The notes below the pieces were generated by a model. It did not search any database, was not told the DNA's origin, and saw nothing but the letters and a program-made list of their open reading frames with translations. A program made the position numbers and the translations under genes. A stretch of 64,000 bases of DNA, from NCBI RefSeq assembly GCF_029213205.1, contig NZ_JARGNH010000005.1:62001-126000 (forward strand), given 5' to 3'. How positions within the stretch are numbered: position 1 is the stretch's first letter; each line of letters begins with the position of its first letter. Shown piece by piece: positions 31,243 through 33,444 of this stretch. This stretch comes from Pseudooceanicola sp. Its GTDB lineage: Bacteria; Pseudomonadota; Alphaproteobacteria; Rhodobacterales; Rhodobacteraceae.

Positions 31243-32370
31243 ATGACCGCTCCCGATCGCACCGCGAAACTCACCTCGGCCTTGCCGTTTGCGCTGTCGA
31301 TGCTGAACGTGCCGCTGGCCTGGATCGGTGCCGTCCATGGCGGCTGGTCGGTGGTTCTGCTGCCGCTCTATAGCTATTTCACCTTCAGCATTCTGGACGC
31401 GTTGACCGGGCTGAATCTGGACAATCCAGACCCGAACACGCCGGATTCCGATCTGTTCTGGTATCGCGCGATCACCATGATCTGGTTTCCGATCCAGGCG
31501 ATCACGGTGTTTTCGCTGATCTATTACGTCACCCACAGCGACCATCTGAGCCTGCTGGAAGTGCTGGTGCTGTTTTACGGCGTCGGGATCATGGCCGGGG
31601 CGACCGGGATCGTGTTCTCGCATGAGCTGATGCATCAGAAGAACAAGCTTGAGCGCTGGCTCGGCGACCTGCTGCTGGCGAATGTGCTCTATTCACATTT
31701 TCGCAGCGAACATCTGCTGGTGCATCATGTCGATGTCGCCACCCCGCGCGATGCGGTGACCGCCCGCTACAACGAAGGCTTTCCGCGCTATTTCCTCCGG
31801 GTGCTGCGGCAATGCCCGCGCTCGGCCTGGGCTGCGGAGAAGCGGATGCTGGCGCGGCGCGGCGCCTCCATGTTCGACCGGCGCAATCCGTTCTGGCGCT
31901 ATGCGGCGCTGCAGGCGCTGATGCTGGGGCTGGCGCTGTTGGCCGGTGGTTGGGCCGGGCTGGGGCTGTTCCTGTTCCTGGCCTTTGTCGCGATCTGGCA
32001 GCTGGAGCTGACCAATTACGTCGAACATTACGGGCTGACCCGCAAATACCTGGGCGACGGTAAATTCGAACGGGTGATGCCACATCATTCCTGGAATGCC
32101 TCGCACAGGGCGACGAACTGGCTGCTGATCAACCTGCAACGGCATTCCGATCACCATTACAAACCTGACCGGCGGTTCCCGTTGTTGCAGACCTATGGCG
32201 CGGATCAGGCGCCGCAATTGCCCTATGGCTATCCGATCATGGCCTCGGTGGCGATGGTGCCTCCGCTGTGGCGACGCTGGATGAATCCCCGGGTGCGCAA
32301 GTGGCGGGCGATGTATTACCCCGAGATCACCGATTGGGCGCCTTACAAGCGCGGCCTGCATACGGGGTGA
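31243..32370 (+). CDS. alkB: AlkB-type alkane 1-monooxygenase
   Basis: A 375-residue integral-membrane diiron monooxygenase with about six membrane helices and all histidine boxes: HELMH (127-131), HLLVHH (157-162), HSDHH near 304-308, plus NYVEHYG near 259. AlkB converts medium-chain n-alkanes to primary alcohols. Electron donors (rubredoxin and its reductase) are not in the window, so they must be encoded elsewhere. The ATG at 31243 follows mutY by 36 bases on the same strand; there is no strong terminator between. Confidence 0.9.
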   Translation: MTAPDRTAKLTSALPFALSMLNVPLAWIGAVHGGWSVVLLPLYSYFTFSILDALTGLNLDNPDPNTPDSDLFWYRAITMIWFPIQAITVFSLIYYVTHSDHLSLLEVLVLFYGVGIMAGATGIVFSHELMHQKNKLERWLGDLLLANVLYSHFRSEHLLVHHVDVATPRDAVTARYNEGFPRYFLRVLRQCPRSAWAAEKRMLARRGASMFDRRNPFWRYAALQALMLGLALLAGGWAGLGLFLFLAFVAIWQLELTNYVEHYGLTRKYLGDGKFERVMPHHSWNASHRATNWLLINLQRHSDHHYKPDRRFPLLQTYGADQAPQLPYGYPIMASVAMVPPLWRRWMNPRVRKWRAMYYPEITDWAPYKRGLHTG

Positions 32371-32570
32371 GCGATAGTATATGTCGCGTATCCGACAGTC
32401 AGAATAGTCCACACACACCCGATAATGAGCGCCGTTAGTCTTTTTTACTGCCGACCGCTTCCTGCTTCTTGGTCAGGCCCGACTTTTTCGTGACCGGTCA
32501 AGCGCGTCGTCGGATGTGTCTGCTTTGAGTTAGTCGTGACGCGCTTATTCGCGCCTATCCCATTAAATTA

Positions 32571-32599
32571 TTGTACGCGCCTAGTATTGGCGCTATGTA
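32571..32599 (+). promoter_or_regulatory. Promoter with palindromic operator upstream of the 166-residue gene
   Basis: TTGTAC (32571-32576) and TATGTA (32594-32599) with a 17-base spacer. The spacer itself begins and ends in an inverted repeat, GCGCC (32577-32581) and GGCGC (32589-32593), a typical repressor site placed between the two boxes. It lies about 45 bases before the start of the hypothetical gene, in AT-richer DNA. Confidence 0.5.
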
Positions 32600-32644
32600 T
32601 GCGATGAATCGGGGTCTCTCCCGCTAAATCTAGTTGGGCTGGTT

Positions 32645-33145
32645 ATGAGCATTGCATCTATAACTTCTGAAATTGAGGCTCTTATCAAGAGGGCATCAGA
32701 TGAAGCTTACGCGCGTGGAAAAGAGGACGCGAAGCGCGAGATGCTGATGCTGCTATCGCCTGGCGTCACCGCAGCGCAATCCGAGGACGAGCAGAATAAT
32801 ACCTTCGATCAGGAAGATGATGACGCCACACCTCAGCGCAAGCGCGCGCCTAGAGGTTTGCCCAAAGCTCTGACGATGCGAATGCTTTCTGCGTCACGCA
32901 CAGGACTCACGCCACAACAAATAGTTGATGGGGCGCAAACCGAAAACGAACAGATGATCGCAGTTTCAACAATCCGCAGTGAACTTCGAAAGGGCCAGAA
33001 GTCTGGTCTGTATAAAGAGGTCAACGGACTTTGGTTTTTATGTGAAGCGGAGGACAATTCCGTGGAAGGCTCGCCCTCCGCTTCGAACTTTAGCCACGAA
33101 AGGAAACAAGATGCCCCCTCCGTAAAGTCTACAATCTGGGACTAA
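32645..33145 (+). CDS. Hypothetical protein, possible winged-helix regulator
   Basis: A 166-residue protein not assigned to a family. Residues 5-35 look like a charged coiled coil (IEALIKRASDEAYARGKEDAK); a Glu/Asp-rich linker follows, then a basic patch (QRKRAPRGLPK) and from about residue 85 a winged-helix-like region: GLTPQQIVDGAQ as a helix pair and IAVSTIRSELRKG as a possible recognition helix, then GLYKEVNGLWFL as a wing. G+C is clearly lower than the neighbours, and third-position bias is weak, which suggests recent transfer. A palindromic operator just upstream fits autoregulation. Confidence 0.6.
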   Translation: MSIASITSEIEALIKRASDEAYARGKEDAKREMLMLLSPGVTAAQSEDEQNNTFDQEDDDATPQRKRAPRGLPKALTMRMLSASRTGLTPQQIVDGAQTENEQMIAVSTIRSELRKGQKSGLYKEVNGLWFLCEAEDNSVEGSPSASNFSHERKQDAPSVKSTIWD

Positions 33146-33153
33146 TCCCAGAA

Positions 33154-33192
33154 GCCCGCTCCTGACATGGGAAATCCTGTCAAGGGGCGGGC
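33154..33192 (+). terminator. Strong hairpin after the hypothetical gene
   Basis: GCCCGCTCCTGACA and TGTCAAGGGGCGGGC form a nearly perfect 14-15 base pair stem with a 10-base loop. It begins nine bases after the 166-residue gene's stop and ends nine bases before the class II tRNA gene. No T-run follows, so it could also act as a processing signal or barrier. Confidence 0.5.
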
Positions 33193-33200
33193 ACTTCAAC

Positions 33201-33301
33201 GCGGACGTGGTGGAATGGTAGACACAGTAGCCTTGGAAGCTACGGGGGCCGCCGTAGGAAGCACTTGCCCCGTGCCGGTTCAAGTCCGGTCGTCCGCACC
33301 A
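33201..33301 (+). tRNA. Class II, leucine-like tRNA with Pro (UGG) anticodon and oversized variable arm
   Basis: The 101-base gene folds as a tRNA with CCA encoded. Acceptor stem: GCGGACG (33201-33207) pairs with CGTCCGC (33291-33297), then A73. Short D-stem GTG/CAC. Anticodon stem GTAGC/GCTAC (33227-33231, 33239-33243) with loop CTTGGAA, giving anticodon TGG. T-arm GCCGG-TTCAAGT-CCGGT (33274-33290). Between them is a 30-base variable arm with a GGGGC/GCCCC stem (33245-33249, 33267-33271), twice the normal length. The body resembles tRNA-Leu, but the anticodon reads proline CCN codons. A true gene, a decoding-altered tRNA or a mobile-element relic are all possible. Confidence 0.75.
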
Positions 33302-33322
33302 TTTTTATACAACACTCTGACT

Positions 33323-33359
33323 CCATTGGCAAATCCCAAGTAAAGAGATCTGCCAATGG
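33323..33359 (+). repeat. Inverted repeat after the unusual tRNA
   Basis: CCATTGGCAAATC (33323-33335) and GATCTGCCAATGG (33347-33359) form a 13-base-pair stem with one mismatch and an 11-base loop, 21 bases downstream of the tRNA CCA. It may be a terminator, processing site or element end. The rest of 33302-33440 shows no gene; GGCGAC (33371-33376) and GTCGCC (33439-33444) can also pair at longer range. Confidence 0.5.
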
Positions 33360-33444
33360 GTTAGTATTACGGCGACTTTTTTTGGTGCATCCCTCAGTGA
33401 TTTCGTGGCCGCTTCAGAGTGGGTGATTCAGGTCTAACGTCGCC

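Follow-up and report, generated by a model that had tools for sequence, protein, structure and literature searches.

A leucine-type tRNA gene with a proline anticodon in Pseudooceanicola, and related tRNAs carried by IS1595-family transposons

The tRNA gene and its setting

The window analyzed here is a 64 kb stretch of a 3.69 Mb Pseudooceanicola genome. Between a desaturase gene and ccrM it holds a lineage-specific stretch of ∼1.07 kb that contains one open reading frame (ORF166), two hairpins, and a tRNA gene, laid out as follows.

32372..33440, no strand: lineage-specific stretch, from the desaturase stop to the ccrM terminator (limits from comparison with L226 and L228; right limit approximate)
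32645..33145, +: ORF166, 166 codons, with predicted helices and strands (low-confidence model)
33111..33125, +: ATGCCCCCTCCGTAA, preceded by AAAGGA; either a Met-Pro-Pro-Pro mini-ORF or a DNA motif, unless due to chance
33136..33151, +: small hairpin CTGGGA-CTAA-TCCCAG, read from the sequence
33154..33192, +: strong GC-rich hairpin, 8 nt upstream of the tRNA, predicted by folding
33201..33298, +: class II tRNA gene with a Leu-type body and anticodon UGG (sequence, Rfam, and cloverleaf parse)
33234..33236, +: anticodon TGG (U34 G35 G36), in the loop CTTGGAA at 33232-33238 (cloverleaf parse)
33244..33273, +: variable arm, 30 nt (cloverleaf parse; shape from a single-sequence fold)
33299..33301, +: encoded 3' CCA

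The Rfam tRNA model matches the gene at 55.6 bits (E 2.8e-9), and the cloverleaf parse pairs the acceptor stem (7/7), the D stem (3/3), the anticodon stem (5/5, GTAGC/GCTAC), and the T stem (5/5, one pair being G-U). With A73 present and CCA encoded, the gene is too good for a chance match and is intact, in line with the earlier note. The anticodon loop reads C32 U33 UGG A37 A38, which bears out the proline anticodon that the note had described. ARAGORN labels the gene tRNA-Ala(AGC) and places the anticodon at position 38; a 5-bp stem closing a 7-nt loop sets UGG at 34-36, and for that reason we regard the ARAGORN anticodon as mis-registered. That the gene is an interrupted tRNA-Leu(UAA) was considered and rejected, as this stem and loop are uninterrupted.

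When the anticodon and variable arm are masked and the gene is compared with the 35 tRNAs parsed from the same genome, the nearest is Leu(UAA), at a score of 43 versus 25 for the next isotype, in agreement with the Leu-type body claimed before. G1-C72 and A15/U48 are leucine-type at the positions tested. By acceptor identity (A73, A15/U48, a class II arm, and a Leu-like D-arm) the gene is thus a tRNA-Leu; by decoding it is not, since G35 replaces A35. It shares G35 and G36 with bacterial tRNA-Pro and has C72, A15, and U48 where bacterial tRNA-Pro has G72 and G15:C48. The anticodon is two positions away from that of Leu(UAA). The variable arm is predicted to form an outer stem (GGGGC/GCCCC) that leaves bases unpaired on its 3' side, ahead of a weak 2-bp inner hairpin; its 30 nt are about twice the 15 and 18 nt of two ordinary class II tRNAs parsed likewise (L371, L379), as had been noted.

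A listing of the leucine and proline tRNAs of the genome, which the earlier note had suggested, gives five Leu isoacceptors (UAA, CAA, UAG, CAG, GAG) and three Pro isoacceptors (CGG, GGG, UGG) besides the window gene, which is therefore an extra gene. Such genes are rare. A pattern of Leu D-arm plus YTTGG occurs in 29 stretches among 84,980 species genomes, and five of these are uninterrupted UGG cloverleaves on Leu bodies: L075 (Acidobacteriaceae), L082, L083, and L084 (Ferruginivarius) by the parser and L077 by reading, with L082 and L083 from one assembly. The earlier note's claim that such a gene is absent from normal bacterial tRNA sets is thus close to right. Most of the other 24 stretches look like interrupted tRNA-Leu(UAA) genes, which would presumably hold introns; Rfam at gathering scores finds no group I intron in the 20 pattern-match loci scanned, two of which (L077, L084) were expected to be intron-free. 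Ten loci (L061, L062, L067, L070, L071, L073, L078-L080, L088) are tRNA-Leu genes seemingly interrupted after U34; the interruptions in L061, L062, L067, and similar loci are presumably introns, and no Rfam intron family reaches its cutoff there.

Closer to home, there is no full-length match to the window tRNA in 21 congeners. The pattern occurs in 2/394 family genomes (its own and one where the gene is seemingly interrupted) and in its own alone among 385 class genomes, the class-level pattern demanding a variable arm of ∼20 nt or more. BLAST of the window tRNA against phages and plasmids, and of two kin tRNAs against phages, finds no homologue. Three congeners (L033-L035) have an extra tRNA-Leu(UAA) with the acceptor sequence GCGGACA adjoining a tRNA-Met(CAT); at L032, the tRNA-Met is accompanied by a Leu-like match left uncalled by ARAGORN.

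The GC content of the stretch is 0.49-0.55, versus mostly 0.56-0.73 in the flanks, and ARAGORN finds a tRNA beside ccrM (∼1.5 kb each side) at 0/21 congener loci. In L226, which has the closest layout, homology to the window ends at 32360 and resumes at 33440, with ∼20 bases in place of ∼1.08 kb; in L228 it extends through 32371 and begins again from 33446, with 292 bases between. The desaturase and ccrM, both seen in eight congeners (L222, L223, L226, L228, L237, L239, L240, L241), are 119 to 915 bp apart there, compared to 1157 bp in the window, and because this spacing is variable a single discrete insertion is unproved. We read the stretch as a putative mobile insert.

ORF166 is predicted to have an N-terminal helix and a C-terminal helix-helix-strand-strand part, though the structure models are of low confidence (pLDDT 61, and 57 for the ORF of L435 discussed below). 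Searches of phages, plasmids, viral contigs, and 21 other genomes of the genus return no homologue of ORF166, and it matches no Pfam family; two PHROG matches (E 0.027 and 0.16) were disregarded. Compared with the small ORFs that adjoin transposon tRNAs, it shows no significant homology (hhalign probability 0.3%), and its best phmmer match among 11,678 ORFs, the L435 ORF, has E 0.44, versus 0.18 reached by a shuffled set. Strong hairpins also lie upstream of some other tRNAs, among them those of L084, L254, L255, L429, and L436; they are weak or non-adjacent in, e.g., L098, L338, and L075. The first 14 bases of ATGCCCCCTCCGTAA, followed by G, occur upstream of a class II tRNA in one phage record (L108/L244). 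The motif ATGCCCCCTCCGTAR is common to the window and L108, where the pattern that includes the SD has its sole match among the viral sequences. As a general feature, a Met-Pro-Pro-Pro mini-ORF was rejected: it precedes a class II tRNA in the window and L108 only, and two further pattern matches (L265, L266) have no tRNA by the parser.

Kin tRNAs as cargo of IS1595-family transposons

In addition to the genomic loci above, the pattern scans recover uninterrupted Leu-bodied UGG tRNAs from phage records (L094, L098, L254, L255). The search for homologues that the earlier note had recommended thus finds UGG recurring in 11 diverged tRNAs, several with long arms. G1, A15, U48, and A73 are invariant in 11/11 of the UGG tRNAs compared; position 72 is C in nine, U in two, and G in none, consistent with the absence of G72 that had been pointed out for the window gene (C72). 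A37 is present in 10/11, and the loop CTTGGAA is common to the window, L098, and L254. Across the acceptor, anticodon, and T stems of the 11, 184/187 cells are paired, with many two-sided changes. The variable arms measure 30-46 nt in the window, L084, L098, L254, L255, and L353, and 15-21 nt in L094, L075, L338, L356, and L280, where the anticodon is UGG too. Single-sequence folds predict an outer stem, 3' bulge, and inner hairpin in the arms of the window, L254, and L084; in L098 and L255 this layout appears only within a non-cloverleaf minimum. Some cargo tRNAs are imperfect: L286 pairs 3/5 of its anticodon stem, L280 has C33, and L356 has an odd T loop.

A tblastn search with two transposase queries against 180 sources places an IS1595-type transposase beside the tRNAs of L094, L098, L254, L255, and L075 (the frames of L254 and L255 being short) and, weakly, L108/L244. 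The Pfam family PF12762 occurs in 5/6 phage records with odd class II tRNAs, L130 being the record without it (5/6 were already transposase-positive earlier), and in 0/35 other phage records drawn from earlier scans. Those 35 include seven with GUU class II tRNAs, three with other odd anticodons (L124, L181, L193), and two with a UGG pattern match that lacks a normal cloverleaf (L096, L099). Three loci are complete IS1595 elements, with a transposase, end repeats matching at 19/20 positions, an 8-bp duplication, and a UGG tRNA inside: L094 (2978 bp, TCTTTCCT), L098 (2702 bp, AATTTTTT), and L075 (3192 bp, AAATGTTT). L254 has a 20-base perfect inverted repeat around the tRNA and a short transposase frame, without an 8-bp duplication.

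Mismatched tRNAs lie in or beside the element at 8/80 phage IS1595 loci, the sample being the best 80 of 152; five have UGG (L279, which is L098, and L280, L338, L353, L356), one AGG (L286), and two GGA (L319, L342), and L353 has a second tRNA with anticodon CGC. The family sample consists of 80 loci taken from the upper portion of the matches listed, 99/394 family genomes having a match, and in four of these 80 a tRNA lies between the repeats: a Leu-like UUA tRNA (L435), two Cys-like bodies with CGC (L429, L436), and a GCC tRNA with A73 and C33 (L381). The mismatches other than UGG include Leu bodies with AGG, GGA, and UUA and Cys-like bodies with CGC and GGA. The Cys-like assignment, made from U73 and a similar D-arm, is tentative, and for L436 the masked comparison favors Leu (29 versus 24). 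By the same comparison the L435 tRNA is nearest to Arg, and its Leu body is therefore read from the D-arm; seven tRNAs (the first copy in L353, and L356, L280, L286, L342, L429, L381) are unparsed in this comparison. In a strict set of 86 elements from the matches listed (30 phage, 56 family), defined by ≥16/20 end matches, an exact 8-bp duplication, and a transposase inside by position check, 8/86 hold a tRNA.

For these counts, spurious ARAGORN hits (L375, L405, L433) were dropped. Two phage tRNA arrays (L346, L358) are uncounted and outside the Rfam scans, which cover 78/80 phage loci; L280 and L356 were missed by those scans and called by ARAGORN. An ordinary tRNA-His at L421, where no element ends were found, is also uncounted, as are the mismatched tRNAs of L297 (UAU, Ser-like body) and L343 (GCU, nearest Arg body), which lie outside their elements. 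Ordinary tRNAs occur outside the repeats at L341, L371, and L379.

Several related observations were made in these scans. The UUA tRNA of L435 (5834-5920, −), which reads the stop codon UAA, sits in an IS1595 element with ends matching 20/20 and the duplication TAACCTTA, 16 nt upstream of an ORF that resembles a helix plus wHTH. The stop codons of the element's ORFs give no sign of its use: the transposase ends in TAG, the wHTH-like ORF in TGA, and one of two smaller ORFs in TAA. On contig C18 of the window's own genome lies a complete IS1595-family element (L276:5310-8810; ends 19/20, duplication GATATTTT). It encodes a probable membrane protein and has a small wHTH-like ORF, and the scans show no tRNA in it. 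In the phage record of L108, a Leu-bodied GUC tRNA (L244:1484-1602 region) is flanked by the inverted repeat TTATCCTTAGG / CCTAAGGATAA, and the record of L098 has two more odd tRNA matches, 103 and 92 nt long and without a clear anticodon (L248, L249). Many phage contigs also encode class II GUU tRNAs (L102-L106, L111-L113, and others; at least 49 parsed), which combine a Leu-like D-arm and a 28-41 nt variable arm with ends of Asn type (mostly U1-A72, G73); no IS1595 transposase was found in the seven GUU phage records tested.

The window stretch itself lacks the defining parts of such an element. No IS1595 transposase is found in the window by tblastn, the one PF12762 match of the genome being on contig C18, and neither terminal inverted repeats nor an 8-bp target duplication was found for the stretch. 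Its right end has possibly been lost, and at its left end the likeness to known ends is matched by 1 in 20 random 14-mers. The origin of this copy is therefore inferred from its kin. The link consists of the tRNA itself, the lineage-specific DNA, the ATGCCCCCTCCGTAR motif shared with L108, and the layout of ORF166, which is like that of small ORFs beside other cargo tRNAs, a likeness unconfirmed by profile comparison. The stretch may be a transposase-less relic or a non-autonomous relative of a tRNA-carrying IS1595 element.

Charging, decoding and alternative explanations

The host LeuRS would be expected to charge the window tRNA with leucine, because the E. coli enzyme reads A73, A15-U48, and the D-loop, not the anticodon. 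E. coli leucine identity comprises A73, A15-U48, G18G19, and A20a, with the anticodon and the variable-arm sequence dispensable, and proline identity comprises G72, A73, G35, G36, G15:C48, and others, position 37 appearing as G37 in the table and A37 in the text (PMC9976931), so that this position does not discriminate. Retention of A73, A15, and U48 in 11/11 UGG tRNAs therefore favors leucine acceptance and disfavors proline acceptance. The leucylated tRNA could pair with CCA, and by wobble perhaps with other CCN codons, so that low-level leucine at proline codons would follow. Candidate gains to the transposon are an altered transposase, stress, or defense against tRNA-targeting enzymes. CCA accounts for 89/890 proline codons across 36 long ORFs of the window; a missense tRNA would therefore meet an uncommon codon, although wobble could widen its range.

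Codon usage hints that these tRNAs may be used in translation. In nine UGG-element transposases, CCA encodes 27/94 prolines versus 93/835 in 72 others; for the nine, 12.9 would be expected after correction for general use of A-ending codons. The nine are related sequences, two of them fragments, and the comparison is post hoc. Two columns are proline in each of the first three elements, and CCA encodes 6/6 of these residues. That CCA is read as leucine in the transposases was rejected: the CCA columns of the larger set hold mostly N, D, A, S, E, I, T, and V in relatives rather than Leu, and we therefore claim no reassignment. A reassigned CCA is also absent from the available part of the Codetta paper (PMC8629427).

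Taken together, these observations suggested to us that the gene is mobile cargo whose tRNA probably receives leucine from LeuRS and decodes CCA, and this is our best reading. In full, an intact Leu-type tRNA whose anticodon was switched to UGG would have arrived in a mobile insert, with its kin as IS1595 cargo, and would be charged by LeuRS and place leucine at proline codons; we give this a probability of roughly 0.5. The interpretation in the earlier note is partly supported. A broader proposal, which we advance more tentatively, is that IS1595 elements recurrently carry tRNAs whose identity and anticodon disagree, and would locally rewrite or blur the code of the recipient cell, with the window gene as a chromosomal descendant; Leu bodies would then read proline, serine, aspartate, and even stop codons, and Cys-like bodies alanine and serine codons.

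Other explanations appear less probable. The tRNA may be a non-decoding or protective RNA, that is, a tRNA-like decoy or regulator acting with a small DNA-binding protein, with the long arm as the working part. The arms of 30-46 nt would suit such a role, as would the helix-plus-wHTH-like ORFs (a likeness judged by eye) beside the tRNAs of the window, L108, L075, L356, and L435 and the Schlafen/AlbA_2 protein adjoining that of L094. However, five UGG members have short arms, and all keep acceptor-identity elements that a decoy would not obviously need, so we consider this role unlikely. Somewhat more doubtful still is charging with proline, by which the tRNA would supply CCA decoding to its mobile element, in the manner proposed for phage tRNAs and phage genes. 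The CCA excess and the presence of G35, G36, A73, and G49 agree with proline charging; yet G72 is found in 0/11, A15/U48 replaces G15:C48 in 11/11, and the excess is subject to the limits given above, with A-ending codons of Ala, Gly, and Arg also somewhat raised.

Alternatively, the gene might be a copy of an ordinary tRNA-Leu that has no role and is decaying or newly mutated, or else an assembly error; this is already disfavored and is the least probable of these explanations. Its rarity (0/21 congeners, 2/394 family genomes, and 1/385 class genomes, the arm being ∼20 nt or more) speaks in its favor. Against this stand the fully paired stems, an anticodon two positions removed from Leu(UAA), and the recurrence of UGG across 11 diverged tRNAs whose stem changes are compensatory.

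Comparison with known systems

Our best reading remains that of mobile cargo probably charged by LeuRS. If charged and used, the window tRNA would amount to a missense tRNA occurring naturally in bacteria, comparable to the mistranslating tRNAs made in the laboratory and to the nev-tRNAs of nematodes. It would tie missense-type tRNAs to a transposon family, and horizontal transfer could then import codon ambiguity in one step, which, if true, bears on the origin of genetic-code changes. The kin provide a set of natural, diverged molecules open to testing. A specialist would find the recurrent IS1595 cargo pattern the most surprising part; in the open-access literature searched, there is no report of tRNA cargo on IS1595 or of comparable mismatched cargo.

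IS1595/ISXO2-like transposons (PF12762) hold kin of the window tRNA together with end repeats and 8-bp duplications, in contrast to the window stretch, which is without a transposase or provable ends. Phage suppressor tRNAs are reportedly mobile-element tRNAs that alter decoding at stop codons; here a sense codon is concerned, and the Leu-bodied UUA tRNA of L435 comes closer to them. Allo-tRNAs and the selC* tRNA-Cys are likewise bacterial and of non-canonical shape, and most allo-tRNAs have an anticodon that does not match the acceptor type, as in the window tRNA; however, they have an 8/4 or 9/3 acceptor branch and serine identity, whereas the window tRNA has a 7/5 branch and A73 (PMC7609411).

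The nearest precedent is provided by the nev-tRNAs of nematodes, which have a variable arm and non-leucine anticodons (CCC, UAU) and are leucylated in vitro; they are eukaryotic, have other anticodons, and are not described as mobile cargo in the available portion of the source, and kinship is not implied (PMC4300185). The same portion reports no detectable mistranslation by similar Leu-type nematode tRNAs (PMC4300185). The sequence elements of the window tRNA would fit misacylation of the kind seen with nev-tRNAs.
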